Source: an uncultured Lachnospiraceae bacterium (GTDB lineage: Bacteria; Bacillota; Clostridia; Lachnospirales; Lachnospiraceae). From it: 64,000 nt of DNA. The DNA lies in contig CANRNJ010000016.1 in the NCBI GenBank assembly GCA_947631955.1, positions 1 through 64,000 on the forward strand. Reading direction: 5' to 3'. The notes below the pieces were generated by a model, which was not told the DNA's origin, did not search any database, and saw only the letters and a list, made by a program, of their open reading frames with translations. Below, in pieces: positions 4,619 to 57,064 of this stretch; positions within the stretch are counted from its first letter, which is position 1; every line of letters begins with the position of its first letter. The translations under genes and the position numbers were made by a program.

Positions 4619-5797
4619 ATGAAGAAGATAATGCTTTTTGAAGGCGATATAGAAACGCAGGGATATTTTTCAAGACAGCTTGCGGCAGGATTTGAAAAAC
4701 TTGGACATGCGGCATTTATGTATGACTTGGGAAAACCGTATATAAGCACGGAGAAGTTTTTCCGCTTCTTTGAAAGGGGCAATACGGTCCTTGTCAATTT
4801 TAATTTCCACGGTATGAGCGGAGAAGATTATTTCCTTGATGAAAACGGCAGGAGCATGTGGGACGCGCTGGATATTCCCAGTTATAATATCGTGGTGGAT
4901 CATCCGATGTACTATCACCATTTTCTGGAAAAAGTGCCGCACAACTATCATCATGTCAGCATCGACAGGAATCATGATAAGTATATGGCGAGATTTTTCC
5001 CGGAGATCGAGCGGATGCCGTTTCTCCCGCTCGCGGGAACGCAGCTGTATCCGAATAAGTCCAATGTGCCGACAGTGTATCGCAAGTATGATGTGATGAT
5101 GGTTGGAAATTACTGCGCGCCCAAGACTTTTGAGAAGTTTATTACCCGGATCGATGACGAGTATACGGCGTTTTATTATGGCATGATCGACGATCTGCTG
5201 GCGAATCCGCACAGGACGGTGGAAGAGGTCGCGGAAGCGCATCTTCTCCGTGAATTGGGAGAAGTGCCGGAGGATGAACTGAAAAAAGCGTTGGCAGCGA
5301 TGACGTTCATCGATCTGTATGTGCGTTACACGGTTCGGGGCGAGGCGGTAAAGCGGCTGGCGGACGGCGGCATTAAAGTACACATATTCGGCGACGGCTG
5401 GGAGGCCGTTCCGTGTAAGCACCCGGAGAATCTTCTGCTGATGAATAAACTGGATTCCGAGGGCTGTTTAAAGAAACTCTGCCAGACCAAGATCTCCTTA
5501 AACGTTATGCCGTGGTTTAAAGACGGCGCGCACGACCGGATCTTTAATTCGATGTTAAACGGCGCGGTATGCCTGACAGACTCAAGCGTTTATCTGGACG
5601 GCATCTTGAATGACGGGACGGATTGCTGTATTTACTCTCTGGCGTCCATGGACAGGCTGCCTGAGATTGCGGGCGCGCTGCTTTCCGATCCGGATCGGAT
5701 GCAGAGGATCGCGGATGCGGGGTATCGGACGGCAAAGGCAGGGCACACATGGGCGCACCGCGCGGAGCAGATACATAAGTGGATCGAGAAGGAATAA
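4619..5797 (+). CDS. CgeB/DUF3880-type glycosyltransferase
   Basis: 392 aa from ATG 4619; an in-frame GTG at 4601 is possible, but neither start has a strong ribosome site. The N-terminal half (KKIMLFEGDIETQGYF, then VDHPMYYHHF and SIDRNHDKYM) is like DUF3880. The C-terminal half, with VHIFGDGW, KISLNVMPWFKDGAHDR, NGAVCLTDSS and a terminal HTWAHRAEQI, matches the glycosyl transferase group 1 fold of the CgeB type. It probably adds a sugar to a cell-surface or spore-surface acceptor; donor and acceptor cannot be read from the sequence. The azlC gene follows after 34 nt on the same strand. Confidence 0.75.
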   Translation: MKKIMLFEGDIETQGYFSRQLAAGFEKLGHAAFMYDLGKPYISTEKFFRFFERGNTVLVNFNFHGMSGEDYFLDENGRSMWDALDIPSYNIVVDHPMYYHHFLEKVPHNYHHVSIDRNHDKYMARFFPEIERMPFLPLAGTQLYPNKSNVPTVYRKYDVMMVGNYCAPKTFEKFITRIDDEYTAFYYGMIDDLLANPHRTVEEVAEAHLLRELGEVPEDELKKALAAMTFIDLYVRYTVRGEAVKRLADGGIKVHIFGDGWEAVPCKHPENLLLMNKLDSEGCLKKLCQTKISLNVMPWFKDGAHDRIFNSMLNGAVCLTDSSVYLDGILNDGTDCCIYSLASMDRLPEIAGALLSDPDRMQRIADAGYRTAKAGHTWAHRAEQIHKWIEKE

Positions 5798-5831
5798 GTC
5801 GAAAACCGACAAATCGGAGTTATAGATAAAG

Positions 5832-6548
5832 ATGGAAAACATGCGCAGTAAGAAAGAATATATCGGGTTTGCTTTCCGGCAGTCCATGCCGGTCATGCTT
5901 GGATATGTTTTTTTGGGAACAGCGTTCGGACTTCTTCTGCAGAACGCAGGATATAGTTTTGTATGGGCATTTCTTGCCAGTGCAGTCATTTATGCGGGAA
6001 GTATGCAGTTCGTTCTGGTAAGCCTGCTGACTGCAGGCGCCGGACTTCTTAATACGGCGCTCATGACATTGTTTATCAACGGCAGACATATTTTTTACGG
6101 ATTATCCTTTGTGGAGAAATACAAAAAAATGGGGAAGGCTTATCCGTACATGGTGTTTTCTCTGACGGATGAAACATATTCCGTGCTGTGCGGAACCAAG
6201 GTGCCGGAAGGAATGGACGAGAACAAGGTCTTTTTCTGGATCTCCCTTCTGGATCAAAGCTATTGGGTGGCCGGGTCGGTGATCGGCGCTCTGGCAGGGA
6301 GCCGCATCCATTTTGATTCAACCGGGATCGACTTTTCCATGACGGCGCTGTTTGTCGCGATCGTGGTGGAGCAATGGCAGGGAGCCAGATTGCATTTTCC
6401 GGCGGTCCTGGGTGCGGTCTGCGGTCTGATATGGTTAGTGGTCCTCGGCCCCGATGAATTTATCCTGCCGGCCTTATGTTCCTGTGTGATCATTCTGATT
6501 CTGGCACGCAGACGCATGGAACCGGACATGGGAAAGGAGGAAGGATAG
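5832..6548 (+). CDS. azlC: AzlC family branched-chain amino acid exporter subunit
   Basis: 238 aa, about six to seven membrane segments. The N-terminal block FRQSMPVMLGYVFLGTAFGLL, the AGSMQF motif near residue 58 and FINGRHIFYGLSF near 85 are typical of AzlC. In the known AzlC-AzlD pair the large and small proteins together export branched-chain amino acids or their analogues. The next gene, azlD, starts at the base after the stop codon, with the ribosome site GGAAAGGAGGA inside the azlC end, so the two are translationally linked. Confidence 0.92.
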   Translation: MENMRSKKEYIGFAFRQSMPVMLGYVFLGTAFGLLLQNAGYSFVWAFLASAVIYAGSMQFVLVSLLTAGAGLLNTALMTLFINGRHIFYGLSFVEKYKKMGKAYPYMVFSLTDETYSVLCGTKVPEGMDENKVFFWISLLDQSYWVAGSVIGALAGSRIHFDSTGIDFSMTALFVAIVVEQWQGARLHFPAVLGAVCGLIWLVVLGPDEFILPALCSCVIILILARRRMEPDMGKEEG

Positions 6549-6884
6549 ATGCCGATCAGCATACAACATTCTCTGGCAATCATCGCGGTGACTGCGTTAT
6601 GCACTGTTTTACTCCGGGCATTTCCTTTTCTGGTGTTCGGCGGAAAGAAAGAAGTGCCTAAGACCGTCCGCTATCTGGGCGATGTGCTTCCGGCGTCTAT
6701 TATGGCGGTGTTGGTCGTATACTGCCTGAGAAACATTGATTTTGCGGCGGCTGGCCACTATCTGCCGTCGCTGGTTTCATGCCTTCTTGTGGCCGGCCTG
6801 CATTTTTGGAAGAAAAATATCCTGCTGAGCATCGGTCTGGGAACGGTATGTTACATGATACTGGTGCAGGCGGTGTTTGTTTGA
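6549..6884 (+). CDS. azlD: AzlD family branched-chain amino acid exporter small subunit
   Basis: 111 aa with about four hydrophobic segments, the usual size for AzlD. The motif LLRAFPFLVF near residue 22 and VRYLGDVLPASIMAVLVVYC near 42 are family hallmarks. It directly abuts azlC, as in most genomes with this transporter. Confidence 0.92.
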   Translation: MPISIQHSLAIIAVTALCTVLLRAFPFLVFGGKKEVPKTVRYLGDVLPASIMAVLVVYCLRNIDFAAAGHYLPSLVSCLLVAGLHFWKKNILLSIGLGTVCYMILVQAVFV

Positions 6885-6966
6885 TCTTGATCGTGTGCAT
6901 ATCCGGTTCCGGAGTGTATATCCGGCTTTGCTAAAAAAAGATCCGGCCGTGAAGGGAATAAAAAGA

Positions 6967-7506
6967 ATGAACCTATTTCGGGGAAACCCTCAAAAACGTT
7001 CTGAGAAAATCAGAAGACAGTATGAACGCCATAAGAAGGTGCGCGGCCTGATCAAAAAGCATGCGGATGATATCCTTCATTCGGCCAATTTTAACAGCAC
7101 CAATAAACACCTTCAGCATGGTTCCGTGACGGTCCATAAGCACTGTATGGATGTGGCCCGCTACAGCCTGCTCTTCAACAAGAAATTGGGGATCGGATGC
7201 AACAAATATGATTTGATCCGGGGAGCGCTTTTGCATGATTATTTCCTCTATGACTGGCATGATAAAGATTATCTCCCGCATCGGAAGAGGTTCCATGGTT
7301 TTTTTCATCCCGGCGTTGCCCTTAAGAACGCCGAGAAGGAGTACAGGCTGACGGACAGGCAGCGGGAGATCATCCGCAAGCACATGTGGCCGCTGACCGT
7401 GATGCCGCCGACCTGCAGAGAGGCGTGGGTAGTCACCGCGGCGGACAAATACTGCTCCTTAATGGAAACACTGGGGCTTCATAGGGGACACGGAGCGGCG
7501 GTATGA
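6967..7506 (+). CDS. HD domain protein (predicted metal-dependent phosphohydrolase)
   Basis: 179 aa from ATG 6967, preceded by GAAGGGA; a longer form from TTG 6877 would overlap azlD and lacks a site. Residues ~45-150 form an HD domain: VHKHCMDVARYS, then the HD pair in GALLHDYFLYDWHD, then FHPGVALKNAE and VVTAADKYCSL. Such proteins usually hydrolyse nucleotides or phosphoesters; the substrate is unknown. The stop overlaps the start of the next gene by 4 nt (ATGA), so the two are coupled. Confidence 0.8.
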   Translation: MNLFRGNPQKRSEKIRRQYERHKKVRGLIKKHADDILHSANFNSTNKHLQHGSVTVHKHCMDVARYSLLFNKKLGIGCNKYDLIRGALLHDYFLYDWHDKDYLPHRKRFHGFFHPGVALKNAEKEYRLTDRQREIIRKHMWPLTVMPPTCREAWVVTAADKYCSLMETLGLHRGHGAAV

Positions 7507-8966
7507 GAGAGGAAGATGTCAAAGACAAGGGACTTTACCAAAGATTGTCCGAATACTGCGCCGGTGATTTTTATCCGTATCATATGCCGGGGCATAAGCG
7601 CGGCCGGTATGCCGGGGATATGGCGCGTTATTTTGGGATCGATATAACGGAGATAGACGGTTTTGACGATCTGTATCATGCAAACGGAGTCCTGCGGGAT
7701 GCGCAGGAGCGCGCCAACCGGCTGTATGGGGCGGAGGAAACTTATTATCTGGTGAACGGCAGCACGGTGGGCGTTCTGGCGTCTGTCATGGCGGCGGCGA
7801 AACGGGGAGAGGAGATCCTGATCGCACGAAACTGTCATAGATCCGTTTACCATGCGGCGATCCTCCAAGAACTTAAACCACACTATTATTATCCGGAAAT
7901 ACTGGATGAATATGGTATTTGGGACGGTGTGGGCGCGGACGGCATCAACCGTCTGCTGGAGCAATATCCCGCATGCAGGACGGTAGTCATTACCTCGCCT
8001 ACCTACGAGGGGATCGTGTCCGATGTCAGCGCCGTCGCAAAGAGCGTACATCGGCATGGCGGCGTGCTGATCGTGGACGAGGCGCATGGCGCACACTTTG
8101 GCTTAGACGATCATATGCCGCAGAGCGCGGTCATGTGCGGTGCGGATCTGGTGGTCCACAGCCTGCATAAGACGCTGCCCTCGATGACCCAGACGGCGCT
8201 CCTGCATGTGAAAGGAGAGCGCGCAGACCGCCGGAAACTGAGGGAATATCTCAGGATGATGCAGACGAGCAGTCCTTCGTATGTGATGATGGCGAGCATG
8301 GACTGCTGCGTGCGGTATCTGGAAGAGCACGGTGCGCAGCGGTTTGCCTTTATGAAACGGCAGTATGATCTTTTCCGCAGGCAGACGGAAACGCTTAAAC
8401 ATATACGGATCGGATCAATGACACATATGTCGGAAAAAGGGTATCATCTGACGGACTGGGATATGGGAAAACTGGTGATATCTGTGAGGAATACCTCGTT
8501 GACCGGTCCGATGCTGTACCGTATCCTGCGGGAAGAATATCATCTGCAGATGGAGATGAGCGGCGCGGACTATGTGGTTGCCATTATGACGATCATGGAT
8601 ACGCACGATGGCTGGCAGAGATTGGCTGATGCGCTCCGCCGGATTGATGATAGGATAGAAGGGGAGGAGTTTGACGGCGCGGCAGGGACGGCGTCTTTGC
8701 CGGAAAAGACCGGCCCTTTTACCCCTGCGGAGATCGTCATGACCCCTGCGGACGCCTTTTGTGCGGATCGGAGGGAAGTGCCGCTTGAACAGGCGGCGGG
8801 AAAGACCGCCGCGGAGTTTGTGAATCTGTACCCGCCCGGAATACCGCTCCTTGTGCCGGGAGAGCGGGTGAGTACAGACATACTGGCAAAAATCAGAAAA
8901 TATCTTCAGGCGGGTCTTTGCGTGCAGGGCGTGACGCCGGATGCAGAGATTGCGGTCGTCCTGTAA
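7503..8966 (+). CDS. Orn/Lys/Arg decarboxylase family PLP enzyme (YaaO/SpeA-like)
   Basis: 487 aa. PLP-dependent fold type I enzyme. Visible signatures are YHMPGHKRG near residue 26, YYLVNGSTVG, IDEAHG-type VDEAHGAHFG (Asp binds the pyridine nitrogen), and VHSLHKTLPSMTQTALLH, whose Lys holds PLP. The C-terminal domain (YPPGIPLLVPGE) is characteristic of the Orn/Lys/Arg decarboxylase group. Family members decarboxylate arginine, lysine or ornithine to polyamine precursors. In Bacillus subtilis a homologue (yaaO) sits at the head of the tmk-yaaR-holB-ricT cluster, the same place as here. Which amino acid it uses is not settled. Confidence 0.85.
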   Translation: MREEDVKDKGLYQRLSEYCAGDFYPYHMPGHKRGRYAGDMARYFGIDITEIDGFDDLYHANGVLRDAQERANRLYGAEETYYLVNGSTVGVLASVMAAAKRGEEILIARNCHRSVYHAAILQELKPHYYYPEILDEYGIWDGVGADGINRLLEQYPACRTVVITSPTYEGIVSDVSAVAKSVHRHGGVLIVDEAHGAHFGLDDHMPQSAVMCGADLVVHSLHKTLPSMTQTALLHVKGERADRRKLREYLRMMQTSSPSYVMMASMDCCVRYLEEHGAQRFAFMKRQYDLFRRQTETLKHIRIGSMTHMSEKGYHLTDWDMGKLVISVRNTSLTGPMLYRILREEYHLQMEMSGADYVVAIMTIMDTHDGWQRLADALRRIDDRIEGEEFDGAAGTASLPEKTGPFTPAEIVMTPADAFCADRREVPLEQAAGKTAAEFVNLYPPGIPLLVPGERVSTDILAKIRKYLQAGLCVQGVTPDAEIAVVL

Positions 8967-49843: not shown

Positions 49844-50716
49844 ATGAAGAAACTGGGCAGAAACGATAACTGTTGGTGCGGCAGCGGCAGAAAATATAAA
49901 GCGTGCCACATGGCCATGGATGAAAAAATCGAGCATTACGCGCTTCAGGGGCATATCGTGCCGACGCGTGACATGATCAAGACGCCGGAGCAGATCGAGG
50001 GCATCCGGCGCAGCAGCAGACTGAACATAGCGATATTGGACGAAATTGCCAGACAGATACATATCGGTATGAGCACCGAGGAGATCGACCGTCTGGTCAG
50101 CGATATGACGAAACAGATGGGCGGCATTGCCGCGCCCCTTAATTATGAGGGTTTTCCGAAGAGCGTCTGCACTTCCATCAATGAGGTGGTCTGCCACGGG
50201 ATTCCGTGTGCAGAGCGGCTCTTAAAGGACGGGGATATCGTCAACGTGGATGTGTCCACGATCTATAACGGATATTATTCGGATTCTTCCAGAATGTTTA
50301 TGCTTGGGGACGTGGATCCCGAAACGCGCCGTCTGGTTCAGACAGCGAAAGAGTGCATCGACATCGGATTGGAACAGGTCAAACCGTGGAATTTTCTGGG
50401 CGACATGGCTCAGGCGATCAACGATCACGCCAAGAGCAACGGGTATTCTGTCGTGCGTGAGATCGGCGGCCACGGCGTGGGACTGGAGTTCCACGAAGAG
50501 CCGTTCGTCAGCTATGTGACGAGAAAAGGCACGGAAATGCTCATGGCGCCGGGAATGGTCTTTACGATCGAACCGATGGTCAACATGGGGAAGGCGGATA
50601 TCTACATTGACGATGAAGACGGATGGACGGTATATACCGACGACGGGAAGCCTTCCGCCCAGTGGGAGGTCACGGTGGCGGTCACGGAAGACGGATATGA
50701 GATTTTGACTTATTGA
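49844..50716 (+). CDS. map: type I methionine aminopeptidase with N-terminal SEC-C motif
   Basis: 290 aa. Residues 1-25 hold a SEC-C zinc motif, GRNDNCWCGSGRKYKACHM. The peptidase (~45-290) shows all five metal ligands: the Asp pair in NVDVSTIYNGYYSDSSRMF, His in GGHGVGLEFHEEP, Glu in FTIEPM and Glu in WEVTVAV. Removes N-terminal Met from new proteins; the SEC-C tag probably aids ribosome or protein contact. It follows the GH9 gene after 11 nt and is followed by a strong terminator. Confidence 0.95.
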   Translation: MKKLGRNDNCWCGSGRKYKACHMAMDEKIEHYALQGHIVPTRDMIKTPEQIEGIRRSSRLNIAILDEIARQIHIGMSTEEIDRLVSDMTKQMGGIAAPLNYEGFPKSVCTSINEVVCHGIPCAERLLKDGDIVNVDVSTIYNGYYSDSSRMFMLGDVDPETRRLVQTAKECIDIGLEQVKPWNFLGDMAQAINDHAKSNGYSVVREIGGHGVGLEFHEEPFVSYVTRKGTEMLMAPGMVFTIEPMVNMGKADIYIDDEDGWTVYTDDGKPSAQWEVTVAVTEDGYEILTY

Positions 50717-50747
50717 TGTTGACGAAAAACCGTTTGTACAGTGTAAG

Positions 50748-50788
50748 GTCAGAGAACATCGAAAGAAAAGATGTTCTCTGACTTTTTT
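50748..50788 (+). terminator. intrinsic terminator after map
   Basis: Perfect 13-bp stem GTCAGAGAACATC/GATGTTCTCTGAC with a 9-nt loop, then TTTTTT. Confidence 0.92.
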
Positions 50789-50817
50789 GTCTTCAAAATT
50801 TGTGCAATATTCCGATA

Positions 50818-50846
50818 TTGTCAGTTCCGGAAAAGTCTGTTATCTT
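50818..50846 (+). promoter_or_regulatory. sigma-A promoter of the envelope operon
   Basis: TTGTCA, 17-bp spacer, TATCTT, about 135 nt before the first gene (50983). The long leader holds a palindrome and a hairpin (next entry). Confidence 0.55.
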
Positions 50847-50870
50847 AGCAGTACAATCTTTGGATCTAGT

Positions 50871-50903
50871 TAAAGTATACTTTATTTCGTGCCGCATGGC
50901 ACG
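50871..50903. promoter_or_regulatory. palindrome and hairpin in the leader of the envelope operon
   Basis: Perfect 14-bp palindrome TAAAGTATACTTTA (50871-50884) and hairpin CGTGCC-GCAT-GGCACG (50888-50903) lie 25-57 nt after the -10 box. The first could be a repressor site and the second an RNA structure. Confidence 0.45.
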
Positions 50904-50982
50904 CATCACGGCGGTTCGCCACAGATTTCCAAATGTTGGATCAAACAAAGTTACAGGAAGAAAGGAGTCAGAGTAGTTATCA

Positions 50983-51855
50983 ATGGGAGAATTATGGACA
51001 AAATTGTCGGATTATTTTAATGAAAGAAGAAATTGTCCGGAAAAACGGGAAGATCGTCTGGCGATCGTGCTGATTTCCGTATCGGCGGTCGTGGTCGTTG
51101 TTCTGCTGCTTTTGGTGCTGTGGGGACATCTTATGGGAGAACGCGGGCAGAAAGCGGAGAATGTGGAGGAAACGGCGGCGATACAGACGTTGGAAATGGA
51201 TGCGCCGGAAAAGGACGCGCAGGAATTGCCGTCATATGAGGACCATGCGGCAGAGGTATCGGCGGAAAATGAGGAAAATAAAGAAATATCCACGATACAG
51301 GAAGAGGCGGTGGTATCTAAGGAGTATGAGCAGGAGGCGGCCAAATACCTTGCGCTGGGCGATAAGCAGGAGAAACTCAGGCAGGAGTATCTGCAGGGTA
51401 TGGATCAGCTTGACGCGAGGATAGCGGAATTGTTGGAAAATATGACGCAGATGGAATCGCGTCTGGAGGAAAACAGGACACAGTACCAAACGTCGGACTC
51501 CGGGCGGGGCGACCAGATCTCCTCGCTGTATACGGAAGTGAACGTGATCGTGCAGAGCCTTAAGCAGACCCAGACCGAGATCTATGATCTGACCGATCTG
51601 GTACGGGTCATGAATTCCGAAACGATACCGCTCATTCAGGAACAGATCGCAGGTATGCAGGAAAATATGGACAGGATCCACGCGGCTGTGGAAGATCTGT
51701 CCGCAAAAGCCGACTCGCTGGAGCAGGCGGACGACAGACTGCGGGAGGAACTGGCAGACGCCAAGAATATCCTCAAAGATCTGGCGGACAACACTCTGCG
51801 CTATCGTTACGATGCGGAAACGAAGACGCTCTATCTGGAATCGGCAGAAGAATAA
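50983..51855 (+). CDS. single-pass membrane protein with long coiled coil, unknown function
   Basis: 290 aa; AAAGGAG upstream. A short cytoplasmic basic N terminus, one membrane helix (~26-48, IVLISVSAVVVVVLLLLVLWG), an acidic linker, then predicted coiled coil over ~100-275 with heptad-like leucines (LDARIAELLENMTQMESRLEE; IQEQIAGMQENMDRIHAAVEDLSAKADSLE). Ends in a short beta-like tag, TLRYRYDAETKTLYLES. I do not recognise the family. First gene of a three-gene operon; likely a rod projecting from the membrane that works with the two secreted products downstream (inference). Confidence 0.7.
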   Translation: MGELWTKLSDYFNERRNCPEKREDRLAIVLISVSAVVVVVLLLLVLWGHLMGERGQKAENVEETAAIQTLEMDAPEKDAQELPSYEDHAAEVSAENEENKEISTIQEEAVVSKEYEQEAAKYLALGDKQEKLRQEYLQGMDQLDARIAELLENMTQMESRLEENRTQYQTSDSGRGDQISSLYTEVNVIVQSLKQTQTEIYDLTDLVRVMNSETIPLIQEQIAGMQENMDRIHAAVEDLSAKADSLEQADDRLREELADAKNILKDLADNTLRYRYDAETKTLYLESAEE

Positions 51856-51868
51856 GGGAGGTGGCGAT

Positions 51869-52114
51869 ATGAGGAAAAGAAGGTTGTTTTTTGCGCTGTC
51901 TGCCTGCGCGGCTTTGGCTGCGGCAGGGTCAGATATCCGCGCATATGCGGATGAGGGCGGCCGTGCGGAGAACGAGCCCATACACAGCACGGGCAGCATT
52001 GTGTTTCAGGAGGACGGCGGCGCGGCGATATATGCGGAGGATATCCGATACCTGAAAGAACAGATAGATGCTTTGTTCGCAGAACTGCCCGGAAAGGAGG
52101 AAACGGGATCATGA
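51869..52114 (+). CDS. small secreted protein, unknown function
   Basis: 81 aa from ATG 51869 with AGGGAGGTGG upstream. A signal peptide (1-~27: basic start, LFFALSACAALAAAGS, ending near AYA-DE). The mature part is ~54 aa and ends in AIYAEDIRYLKEQIDALFAELP, closely like the segment IDSSDLTYLADQIDEL near the N terminus of the next gene's product. The two are thus probably paralogous at this motif. Not recognised as a known family. Overlaps the next gene by 4 nt (ATGA). Confidence 0.65.
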   Translation: MRKRRLFFALSACAALAAAGSDIRAYADEGGRAENEPIHSTGSIVFQEDGGAAIYAEDIRYLKEQIDALFAELPGKEETGS

Positions 52115-53259
52115 GAAAGTGCAGACGAGTATGCGCGTTGATTTTCAGCGCGGTCCTGTGCGCTCTGGCAGTTACCGACAGTGCCAGTGCGGAAGGCTCC
52201 GGACGTTCGGCCGCGATCCTGTCCAGAGGGGCGCTGCGGTACGACGAGGACAAGGTGGTGATCGATTCGTCTGATCTTACCTATCTGGCAGATCAGATCG
52301 ATGAACTGGAAACCGCATATAAGACAACGACCGTCGAGGCCCTTGGAGAGATCCATACGTTTTATTCGACGGAGGACGGGAGCATCACGCATGTTCCGGA
52401 CGGCGGTCATATAGAAGGCAGTACGGCGGCAGATCTGTCGTTTGAAGATCTGTATCAGGGCATCCTCCAGTCACAGTCCGTTGCGCATCTGTCCGACACG
52501 CAAGCACAGGACAGCCATGGATCTTTGCTGTACTATGCGGATGATGAGGCGCAGGACAGCCATGATCTGTTAAATGTATCCACGGATGCAAATGAGTATC
52601 CTGTCCGGATCGTTTCCGCCGGACCGGCGAACCTGACGGCAGGAACGGCGGCGTGGGTTGACGGCAGGCTGATCGTCGGCAGCGGGGCGGATAATTCGGC
52701 CTATTATGACAAAGCATACGGGGAAGCCTACGAGAAGGGGCATGACGACGCTTATGACGAAGCGTATAAGAAAGGGCATGACGACGCCTACGACGAAGCG
52801 TATGCGAAGGGGCGCGGCGACGCCTACGACGAAGCGTATGCAAAAGGACGCAGCGACGCCTACGGGGAAGCGTATGAGAAAGGGCGCAGCGACACCTATG
52901 ACACGGCCTACAATAAAGGACATGAGGATGCCTACAACGAGGCGTACAGCAGGGCGCAGGCAGAATATCAGCCCAAAGTCATCAGCGGCCAGTGTCAGGG
53001 ACGGTATATACAAAACACCTGCATATTTGAGGTGCAGGTGCCGGAAAACCTGAGATTCGTCTGCGGCACGATAACCAATGCGAGTGTGACGTGTTATGAA
53101 TATCTGGACGATTCCCGCGTCCGTGTGTGGTCGGAATCCTTTCAGACCGTATATAATAACGGATCGGTCGCGTTCTATATGACTGCCGGAGGCCAGCCCT
53201 ATGGCGACGTGGCCGCGGCCCCTCCGACCGCCGATTATACGATCATGTATGTTCCGTAG
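52111..53259 (+). CDS. secreted repeat protein with Tyr/Lys/Gly/Asp repeats, unknown function
   Basis: 382 aa. Signal peptide 1-~27 (VCALIFSAVLCALAVTDSASA). Residues ~45-70 carry the shared motif ending in SDLTYLADQIDELETAY. Residues ~198-280 are about six 12-residue repeats of the form AY.KG..DAYDE, rich in Tyr, Gly and Asp, probably helical. The last ~95 residues (GQCQGRYIQNTCIFEVQV onward) look beta-rich, with three Cys, and may be an adhesion or binding domain. Lacks an LPxTG sorting site. I do not recognise the protein. Confidence 0.7.
   Translation: MRKCRRVCALIFSAVLCALAVTDSASAEGSGRSAAILSRGALRYDEDKVVIDSSDLTYLADQIDELETAYKTTTVEALGEIHTFYSTEDGSITHVPDGGHIEGSTAADLSFEDLYQGILQSQSVAHLSDTQAQDSHGSLLYYADDEAQDSHDLLNVSTDANEYPVRIVSAGPANLTAGTAAWVDGRLIVGSGADNSAYYDKAYGEAYEKGHDDAYDEAYKKGHDDAYDEAYAKGRGDAYDEAYAKGRSDAYGEAYEKGRSDTYDTAYNKGHEDAYNEAYSRAQAEYQPKVISGQCQGRYIQNTCIFEVQVPENLRFVCGTITNASVTCYEYLDDSRVRVWSESFQTVYNNGSVAFYMTAGGQPYGDVAAAPPTADYTIMYVP
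52702..52950 (+). repeat. 36-bp tandem repeats coding AY-KG-DAYDE units
   Basis: About six and a half units within the secreted protein gene. Conserved positions are A-Y at 1-2, K-G at 4-5, D-A-Y at 8-10; the third position of each codon varies, so selection acts on the protein. The G...A/D...Y spacing every four residues recalls other GX3-type helical repeats. Confidence 0.8.
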
Positions 53260-53378
53260 CCGGTTTTGGCGCAATGAGGCGGAAGGCAGCCGAGCGGCCG
53301 GTGCAGGGAAACAGCGCCGGACCGATGCAGGAGGGCAGCTGATCAGCTGGTGCAGGCAGACCCCGGCGGGCCGGGTAA

Positions 53379-53407
53379 TTGACAAGCGGCTCTATTTATT
53401 GTAGTCT
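53379..53407 (+). promoter_or_regulatory. sigma-A promoter of metG
   Basis: TTGACA, 17-bp spacer, TAGTCT, ~80 nt before the metG start. No T-box or SAM riboswitch is recognisable in the leader. Confidence 0.6.
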
Positions 53408-53487
53408 AACGTTATACGCCGGTTTCCTGTTTCTGCCGTATTTGGCGTGCGCCGGATCTTGGGAGGCGGTTTTGAAAGGAGATTATC

Positions 53488-55512
53488 ATGAATAAGGGCA
53501 AGTATTATATTACAACGGCGATTGCATATACTTCCGGCATCCCGCATATCGGCAACAGCTATGAGATCGTATTGGCAGACAGCATTGCCCGTTTTAAGAG
53601 AAAAGATGGATACGATGTATTCTTCCAGACAGGGACGGATGAACATGGACAGAAGATCGAACTGAAAGCCGAGGAAGAAGGCGTTACACCGAAACAGTTC
53701 GTGGATAAAGTGGCCGGTGAGATCCGCAGGATCTGCGACCTTTTGAATACTTCGTACGATAAATTTATCCGTACGACGGACGAGTCCCATGAGAAGCAGG
53801 TACAGAAGATCTTTAAGAGATTTTATGATCAGGGCGATATCTACAAGGGGTATTATGAAGGGATGTACTGCACTCCCTGCGAATCCTTCTGGACCGAATC
53901 CCAGCTTAAGGACGGCAAGTGCCCCGACTGCGGCAGAGAAGTGAAACCCGCGCGGGAAGAAGCTTATTTCTTTAAAATGAGCAAGTATGCCGACCGGCTG
54001 ATCGAGCATATCAATACGCATCCGGAATTTATACAGCCGGTTTCCCGCAAGAATGAGATGATGAACAATTTCCTTCTGCCGGGTCTGCAGGATCTGTGCG
54101 TGTCCAGAACATCTTATACATGGGGGATCCCGGTCACTTTTGACGAGAAGCATGTGATCTATGTGTGGATGGATGCCCTGACAAATTATATCACGGGCAT
54201 CGGTTATGACGCGGAGGGGGAGAGCAGCGGGCAGTATAAGAAGCTGTGGCCCGCCGACCTGCATCTGATCGGCAAGGATATCATCCGCTTCCACACGATC
54301 TACTGGCCGATCTTTCTGATGGCCTTGGGGGAGCCGCTGCCGAAGCAGGTGTTCGGGCATCCATGGCTCCTTATGAACAATGACAAGATGAGCAAGTCGA
54401 AGGGTAACGTGATCTATGCGGACGATCTGGTGGACTTTTTTGGAGTAGACGCCGTGCGCTATTATCTGCTTCACGAGATGCCCTATGATAATGACGGAAA
54501 CGTCACATGGGAACTGGTGGGAGAACGGACCAATTCCGATCTGGCCAATACGCTGGGCAATCTGGTCAACAGAACCGTTTCCATGAGCAATAAATATTTC
54601 GGAGGACATGTTGCGAATAAACGGGTCGGAGTGGATCCGGGCGAGGAGGATGTGGACGCAGATCTGTTCGGCGTGGTGGCGGACACATATGCCAGAGCAG
54701 CCGCAAAGATGGATGAACTGCGCGTGGCGGATGCCATTACAGAGATCTTCGCGCTGTTTAAACGCTGCAACAAATATATAGACGAAACGATGCCGTGGGC
54801 GCTGGCTAAGGATGAAACAAAGAAAGACCGTCTGGCTTCCGTATTGTATAATCTTTTAAACGGTATTCTGGTGGGCGCATCTTTGCTGGAGCCTTATATG
54901 CCGGATACGGCGGCTAGGATATCTTCCCAGATCAACGCCCAACTGGTCGATTTCGAGGTGTTGGAAGAGTGTGCCGGTAAGCGGGATATCGCGAGAGCGT
55001 CGTCGCTTTATCCGGAGAATAACCAAGTGACGGATACGCCGGAGATACTTTTTGCACGGCAGGACATGAAAGAGATCATTGAGAAGGAGGACGCTGTGTC
55101 TGAGGCCCGCAAAGCGGCGGCGGGAACGGCGGAGAAGGAAACGCAGGAAACCGTCGGGGAGTCCCCTGTCGATCTGCCGTCCAAAGAAACGATCCCGTAT
55201 GACGTCTTCGATCAGTGCCAGTTCTGCGTAGGTGAGATCATAGAGTGCGCGGAAGTTCCGAAATCCAGGAAGCTGCTGTGCTTCAAAGTGCGTATCGGTT
55301 CTGAAACCAGACAGATCCTGTCCGGAATCAAGCAGCATTACAGCGCGGAAGAAATGGTCGGCAAGAAAGTAATGGTTCTGGTCAACTTAAAGCCCAGAGA
55401 GATCGCAGGCATGATGTCGGAGGGAATGTTGTTATGCGCCGAAGACGCGGAGGGGCGGTTGGCGCTTATGACGCCTGAGAAACCGATGCCGTCTGGCGCG
55501 GAGATCTGTTAG
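53488..55512 (+). CDS. metG: methionine--tRNA ligase
   Basis: 674 aa. Class I synthetase: HIGH-type PHIGNSYE near residue 17, zinc cluster CTPCESFW...CPDCGRE near 128-150, and the signature NDKMSKSKGN near 300. The anticodon-binding helices follow, and a C-terminal EMAP/Trbp111-type tRNA-binding domain (about 565-674: FDQCQFCVGEIIECAEVPKSRKLL, GIKQHYSAEEMVGKKVMVLVNL). Charges tRNA-Met. AAAGGAG lies upstream of the ATG. Confidence 0.97.
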   Translation: MNKGKYYITTAIAYTSGIPHIGNSYEIVLADSIARFKRKDGYDVFFQTGTDEHGQKIELKAEEEGVTPKQFVDKVAGEIRRICDLLNTSYDKFIRTTDESHEKQVQKIFKRFYDQGDIYKGYYEGMYCTPCESFWTESQLKDGKCPDCGREVKPAREEAYFFKMSKYADRLIEHINTHPEFIQPVSRKNEMMNNFLLPGLQDLCVSRTSYTWGIPVTFDEKHVIYVWMDALTNYITGIGYDAEGESSGQYKKLWPADLHLIGKDIIRFHTIYWPIFLMALGEPLPKQVFGHPWLLMNNDKMSKSKGNVIYADDLVDFFGVDAVRYYLLHEMPYDNDGNVTWELVGERTNSDLANTLGNLVNRTVSMSNKYFGGHVANKRVGVDPGEEDVDADLFGVVADTYARAAAKMDELRVADAITEIFALFKRCNKYIDETMPWALAKDETKKDRLASVLYNLLNGILVGASLLEPYMPDTAARISSQINAQLVDFEVLEECAGKRDIARASSLYPENNQVTDTPEILFARQDMKEIIEKEDAVSEARKAAAGTAEKETQETVGESPVDLPSKETIPYDVFDQCQFCVGEIIECAEVPKSRKLLCFKVRIGSETRQILSGIKQHYSAEEMVGKKVMVLVNLKPREIAGMMSEGMLLCAEDAEGRLALMTPEKPMPSGAEIC

Positions 55513-56578: not shown

Positions 56579-57064
56579 ATGAAAATATTTAGGACCATGA
56601 AAAGGCTGTTGATACTGATGGCGCTGTGCGTGTGCTGCGCGGCGGTCATGGCGATCCTGCCGTTTCGGAACAGGGATGAAAGCGCGCAGAGCGGTCAGGG
56701 GGACGAAACGATCGTCAGCTGGATGATAGACCGGATAGCCGGCGGCGAGCTGGAACTGTCGGATGAAGAGAGTATCCGGCAGGCGATAAGCGAGGGCGAG
56801 GAGAAGTTCGGGATCTCTCTGACGGAAAGCAGCAAAACGCGTATTGTCGGGTTTATGCAGACGCTCGATAACGTTGAAGAGGGCGCCGGTGATTTTATCG
56901 ATCAGGCAAAGAGGATGTATGAAAAATACAGCGGCGAGTTGATCGAGGAAGCTAATGACGCGGTCAGCGGCGCAGTCCAAGAGGCCAATGACGCGGTCAA
57001 CGGGGCGGTCAAAAACGCCGTTCAGGACGCCGCCCGCAGCTTTTTTCAAAGCCTGATACCATAG
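56579..57064 (+). CDS. small secreted helical protein of unknown function
   Basis: 161 aa. N-terminal signal or anchor (about 5-27, TMKRLLILMALCVCCAAVMAI). The central part (~75-105, GISLTESSKTRIVGFMQTLDNVE) is faintly like DUF1002 helical segments. The C terminus has repeated ANDAVSGAVQEANDAVNGAVKN units predicted helical and amphipathic. Family not recognised. The gene lies between the lipase-like gene and the dehydrogenase gene; GGGAAGCGGAG upstream. Confidence 0.6.
   Translation: MKIFRTMKRLLILMALCVCCAAVMAILPFRNRDESAQSGQGDETIVSWMIDRIAGGELELSDEESIRQAISEGEEKFGISLTESSKTRIVGFMQTLDNVEEGAGDFIDQAKRMYEKYSGELIEEANDAVSGAVQEANDAVNGAVKNAVQDAARSFFQSLIP

Follow-up and report, generated by a model that had tools for sequence, protein, structure and literature searches.

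What do three adjacent genes that lie between map and metG, and that belong to no recognised family, make together at the envelope? The question is raised by genes A, B and C in a 64,000-nucleotide stretch (the window) of contig CANRNJ010000016.1, from an uncultured Lachnospiraceae bacterium (assembly GCA_947631955.1). Lachnospiraceae are abundant gut commensals, and to our knowledge how they contact mucus, food particles or one another is poorly known. We consider it an evenly balanced proposition that the three encode a membrane-anchored, adhesin-like surface stalk with exchangeable tips, A being its anchor, B its adapter and C its tip. Among the explanations weighed below this one fits best; its trimerisation, docking and binding steps are all ones that we infer.

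The three genes lie head to tail at 50983–51855 (A, 290 amino acids), 51869–52114 (B, 81 amino acids) and 52111–53259 (C, 382 amino acids), with 13 nt between A and B and a 4-nt overlap between B and C. A check of the open reading frames (ORFs) gave the same positions and gaps as the first-pass annotation, which had been made from the letters of the window alone; in the ORF list B appears solely inside a longer in-frame ORF beginning at 51812. The features of the three genes are as follows.

50983–51855, plus strand: gene A, with short cytoplasmic segment, transmembrane segment, coiled coil and conserved C-terminal tail; family in 72/77 genus genomes
51058–51126, plus strand: predicted transmembrane segment of A (hydropathy, alignment)
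51796–51852, plus strand: conserved tail of A, LRYRYD....TLYL (motif search of 62 A proteins)
51869–52114, plus strand: gene B, putative 81-residue secreted adapter, short paralogue of C (profile match)
51986–52078, plus strand: head module of B, which contains the shared motif (profile E 3.4e-7, model positions 8–77)
52111–53259, plus strand: gene C, secreted protein made up of a conserved base, repeats rich in Y and G, and a variable tip
52222–52350, plus strand: head module of C (predicted hairpin 42–51 and helix 53–80)
52642–52692, plus strand: second conserved block of C, GTAAWVDGRLIVGSGAD (predicted hairpin)
52693–52965, plus strand: 12-residue Y/G repeats of C (predicted helical, low confidence)
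52966–53256, plus strand: C-terminal tip domain of C (predicted all-beta, low confidence)

Coupling of the proposed anchor to two paralogous secreted proteins

That the three proteins work together is indicated by gene fusions and by gene order outside the map–metG site. A and C are fused in a locus of the same genus (L062) and in one of another genus (L134). Separate A, B and C genes follow each other in the same order, away from map–metG, in L136 of another genus (222, 94 and 336 amino acids) and in L097 of Lachnospiraceae (217, 66 and 311 amino acids); the A proteins of these two loci match the A profile weakly (2e-7 and 3e-6). In addition, six of the 35 C proteins in the alignment have two heads in a row, the B type before the C type (loci L036, L044, L050, L053, L054 and L055). 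The A–C fusions, the six proteins with tandem B- and C-type heads and the recurrence of this gene order in another genus all speak for a single assembly of A, B and C. As far as sequence comparison can tell, the coupling is well supported by fusions and co-occurrence, and a single assembly, as had been supposed in the first-pass annotation, is likely.

The same annotation had assigned to A the role of a membrane-bound rod, and A looks like one, having an N-terminal hydrophobic segment and a likely coiled coil. A strong hydrophobic segment is present in A-family proteins with a median start at residue 28. In the window's A, the hydrophobic fraction at a and d positions is 0.81 in the last two of six scan windows, above the shuffle maximum of 0.69 (n = 200 shuffles), and does not exceed that maximum in the other four. 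The tail motif was found in 57 of 62 A proteins with the first expression and in all 62 once it was loosened. Homology between the tail of A and the head of B and C was tested for and not detected.

Both B and C start with signal-peptide-like stretches (judged by eye). The motif said to be common to them is exact, AEDIRYLKEQIDAL in B and SSDLTYLADQIDEL in C, and the resemblance is above chance, as indicated by the tandem heads and by the profile of 35 C-family proteins, which matches B at E 3.4e-7. B is often longer in relatives, so that the window's B can be seen as a short member of the C family. On this comparison B and C are paralogues, which had been overlooked in the first reading.

A second overlooked point is that C appears to consist of a conserved base and exchangeable tips. 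The end of the base could be recognised in 70 of 90 C-family proteins; the other 20 lacked the motif and were set aside. When the C-terminal parts of the 70 were clustered by single linkage (BLASTP E 1e-4 over at least 50 residues), they fell into 18 clusters without detectable similarity between them, nine having at least two members and nine being singletons, some of them short or truncated. On a quickly made tree of 66 bases, in which 24 of 63 inner branches are unsupported, the 14 tip labels require 19 changes, the least possible number being 13 and the shuffle mean 43.9. Tips are thus inherited, with what seem to be occasional switches.

The rod also seems to be replaceable. Collagen-like membrane proteins are encoded directly upstream of B/C-type genes in L054, L056 and L070, and the anchor of L135, likewise directly upstream of a B/C-type gene, has collagen-like repeats together with a coiled coil. 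In a Pfam scan of the L056, L070 and L135 anchors, Collagen was matched under the cut-off in L056 and L135 and not matched in L070. The anchors of L056 and L070 end in ATI(T/S)YSDG(T/V)LYITQ, recalling the tail of A; those of L054 and L135 end differently. Collagen helices are trimers. If collagen-like and coiled-coil rods bear the same heads, the rod of the stalk is therefore probably a trimer as well.

Two observations on these loci may be added. In L135, of another genus, the C-family ORF (4784–7576) has 930 codons and comes after a 621-residue anchor with the collagen-like and coiled-coil parts; in L137 a C-like protein of 307 residues is preceded by a collagen-like ORF that is cut by the contig end. 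L054, L056 and L070 are conjugative modules that bring their own collagen-like anchor and B/C-type genes: Pfam identified TraG/VirB4-like or PrgI genes in all three, a relaxase in L056 and L070, a TrbL/VirB6-like gene in L070 and a topoisomerase in L054, L070 and L099.

Distribution and gene neighbourhoods

A single C protein used as query matched 54 of 98 genomes, own genome included. One match (G077), a 717-residue protein found via a short acidic repeat, was an artefact and was dropped. With a 35-row profile, C was found in 69/77 genomes of the genus (36/39 of high quality), and with a 21-row profile at E up to 1e-15, A was found in 72/77 (37/39 of high quality). Both families are present in 68 of the 77 genomes, A alone in four (G007, G011, G021, G497), C alone in one that is 67% complete (G008) and neither in four (G003, G014, G042, G495); the co-occurrence has a Fisher p of 2.5e-4, uncorrected for phylogeny. 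In the loci of the four genomes with A alone (L151–L155), A with its tail stands directly before metG and the C family was not detected. In wider samples the C profile matched 7 of 397 genomes of the family (three of the genus, own included, and four of other genera) and 2 of 391 genomes of the class (own included, both of the genus). At most five candidates were scored per genome in these two protein samples, and the large RNA searches described below (77 genus and 299 family genomes) were run with stricter filters, so distant members may have been missed in both.

A keeps its place. All 65 A ORFs of the genus from fetched loci adjoin map and/or metG, 58 having both as neighbours, four metG only and three map only. 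The place of C varies. Automated placement in 71 genomes put C beside A in 40 (three of them with another C elsewhere) and elsewhere only in 19; seven genomes had no called A ORF and five had A without a fetched C. By hand, C was placed beside A in G010 and G057 and elsewhere in G005, G012, G019, G507 and G499; G052 is split by contig ends, and in G498 and G503, also placed by hand, A and C are on one contig within about 2 kb. Altogether, in the 68 genomes with both families, C is beside A in 44, elsewhere in 23 and unassigned in one because of contig ends. The first-pass annotation had named separation of the genes in relatives as something that would refute its reading; such separation occurs in 23 of 68 genomes, but A and C nonetheless co-occur in them. 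Away from A, C was also found in an ftsI-mraY-like region, in a leuS-like neighbourhood, near SbcCD-like genes (names given by eye) and in conjugative modules. By a mechanical rule, 35 of the 38 loci that hold A together with C have an intervening ORF of 54 residues or more, some with doubtful starts.

Stalk, sensor or scaffold

How could such an assembly function? In the stalk-and-tip explanation, A would form a trimeric rod through the wall and dock the B and C heads at its tail, while C would bind a partner with its exposed tip; this partner may be another cell, mucus or a glycan. The stalk would then work as an adhesin with exchangeable tips, and the versions in conjugative elements may aid cell–cell contact during mating. 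A folded leader upstream of A, described in the next section, could set the amount of stalk made.

Of the alternatives to a stalk, the least improbable is an envelope sensor, in which the conserved cytoplasmic start of A would bind a partner inside the cell and B and C would report the state of the wall or of a ligand via the coiled coil. In an alignment of 21 proteins, several of the 24 N-terminal residues of A are indeed invariant or almost so, the start being EFMTKVSDYLNERRNDPE in many relatives. However, A matches no signalling family in Pfam or NCBIfam, the cytoplasmic segment is lacking from the L136 and L097 anchors and from those of the conjugative elements, and in the four genomes without C (G011, G497, G021 and G007) it has diverged. 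We consider a sensor unlikely. Unlikely too is a structural role in the wall, as a scaffold or wall-linked factor that has no ligand outside; the location of B/C near ftsI-like and mraY-like genes in L037 and L038 and the mraZ-like gene adjoining L137 would suit this (all names by eye). Outward binding fits better than a wall scaffold because the tips are diverse and because conjugative modules carry such genes. A secreted B–C pair that acts without A and lies near it by chance would agree with the position of B and C away from A in 23 of 68 genomes, but is made very improbable by the A–C fusions in two genera, the A-B-C order in another genus and the co-occurrence.

If the stalk-and-tip explanation is true, a conserved stalk with swappable tips that is carried in conjugative modules too would offer an experimental way into adhesion and gene transfer in these bacteria. 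A bolder version, which we put forward as a tentative possibility, is a new class of self-assembling trimeric surface fibre in Gram-positive gut bacteria. It would be built of three proteins, with interchangeable coiled-coil or collagen-like rods and with tips swapped between species; conjugative elements would use it too, as an adhesin for mating, and a new structured, single-copy RNA leader specific to the anchor gene would control it.

The general plan of such a stalk has counterparts. As reviewed in PMC7616799, trimeric autotransporter adhesins combine a membrane anchor, a trimeric coiled-coil stalk and a ligand-binding head, and sortase-anchored Gram-positive pili and adhesins an anchor, an extension and an adhesive tip. 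The YadA type resembles the proposed stalk in having anchor, coiled-coil rod and head, and the sortase-anchored type in its order of anchor, extension and tip. YadA-type adhesins have one polypeptide per chain and a beta-barrel anchor, whereas the window, from a Lachnospiraceae relative, encodes three proteins with a single transmembrane segment. The membrane segment of A is N-terminal, unlike the C-terminal beta-barrel anchor of autotransporter adhesins, and Pfam does not report that anchor domain for A (B and C have no Pfam match of any kind). No LPXTG-type C-terminal sorting signal was seen by eye in A, B or C, and at E up to 1 neither Pfam nor NCBIfam shows the N-terminal methylation domain of type IV prepilins. 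The collagen-like stretches in the anchors of L054, L056, L070 and L135 resemble bacterial collagen-like surface proteins, but the window's A has no Pfam Collagen match.

Phage tail fibres also have a conserved base and an exchangeable C-terminal tip, and the plan of C resembles theirs by analogy only: C has no phage or PHROGs match outside its repeats, and the tips have at most one weak match, of unknown function. In PHROGs the best match of C (E 4e-7, function unknown) lies in the repeats, the best match of A has E 1.3e-4 and the sole match of B E 0.42; the one weak match was among nine tips searched. Phage kinship was also looked for and rejected in viral contigs, where 37 pattern hits for C and three for one of its tips contained no relatives, and in phage records, where C was matched in its repeats only (nine records) and two tips were unmatched. 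One plasmid record matches C, over query residues 187–279, which are mostly repeats.

A probable structured RNA leader upstream of A

Another point missed in the first reading is what appears to be a covarying four-helix RNA leader before A, without an Rfam match.

50846–50966, plus strand: conserved structured leader RNA of gene A, predicted outer stem and three hairpins (alignment, covariation, model R1)
50859–50864, plus strand: 5' side of the outer stem, UUUGGA, pairing with UCCAAA at 50928–50933
50872–50883, plus strand: leader hairpin AAAGTATACTTT
50910–50920, plus strand: leader hairpin GGCGGTTCGCC, of a type kept in the diverged clade too

A GTATAC core is present in 43 of 63 A upstream regions examined, and 42 of them (L176 omitted) were aligned. 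The alignment supports 21 pairs in four helices. Pairing was found in 95.0% of cells, as compared to 38–46% when the columns were slid by 1–3. Changes on both sides of a pair occur in six pairs and 44 cells, where shuffles average 3.1 and 12.8; the number of further pair types stands out less (19 versus 17.3, reached by 34 of 500 shuffles). The structure was derived from the very sequences on which it was tested, and this biases the figures towards it. Unaided, RNAalifold predicted three of the four helices with 13 pairs, five of them with both-side changes, and the outer stem was added by hand. By a separate rule for this stem, applied to 52 readable regions (11 were not readable), the outer stem or a variant is the longest helix in 39 and another helix is longest in 13, the mean helix length being 6.2 versus 5.3 in shuffles (largest shuffle 5.9).

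Model R1 found one copy in 53 of 77 genus genomes, in all 53 directly upstream of A with a gap of −2 to 131 nt, and matched 2 of 299 genomes of the family sample (own included, both of the genus). An R1 match is absent in 19 of 72 genomes with A; in the R1-negative upstream regions, the promoter block and a GGC-TCGCC hairpin can be read by eye in 17 of 18 aligned. Rfam gave no match for window positions 50600–53600 at E up to 1, nor for the L072 leader copy at E up to 5. A wider leader regulon was rejected: near-matches to its core at G000:C7 are alike among themselves and come without the remaining parts of the leader, and R1 has a single copy per matching genome.

It is doubtful that the element is instead a DNA operator or a separate small RNA. 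The near-invariance of the palindrome AAAGTATACTTT and the single copy per genome would suit this, but the excess of both-side changes and the paired fraction given above speak for a cis-acting mRNA leader, as does the occurrence, in four of the 52 regions, of UUUGAA/UUCAA(A or G) in place of the stem UUUGGA/UCCAAA. If the leader reading is true, this would be a new regulatory RNA (new by Rfam) with a known target gene.

Family searches and flanking signals

The expectation that none of the three proteins has a known family was borne out: in Pfam and NCBIfam, with PHROGs also scanned, A, B and C have no family at the curated cut-off. A has weak matches, many of them to coiled-coil families, the repeats of C match FliH weakly (NCBIfam, E 0.0083) and B has no Pfam or NCBIfam match, even a weak one. 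A sequence search of solved structures gave nothing for C and 32 hits for A, which we take as coiled-coil composition. Comparison of fold models with known structures showed no clear relative, the base of C included, and among the literature titles and abstract starts listed in searches none was on an A-B-C system.

Two flanking signals upstream of A had been claimed as well.

50748–50788, plus strand: terminator of map, the gene upstream, with a stem of 13 bp, a loop of 9 nt and a T run (read from the sequence)
50818–50846, plus strand: promoter-like site TTGTCA-17-TATCTT with TG before the second hexamer (consensus match 9/12)

The terminator can be read directly in the sequence; the terminator scanner was limited to loops of 3–8 nt and therefore did not list it. 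The promoter stands in part: the site is there and a similar block lies upstream of A in relatives, but the match is just 9/12 and the region has four such sites versus 2.3 (sd 1.5) in shuffles. Further downstream, the second gene after metG (56579–57064) encodes a secreted-looking protein of 161 residues with a DUF1002 match just under the cut-off (E 2.1e-5).
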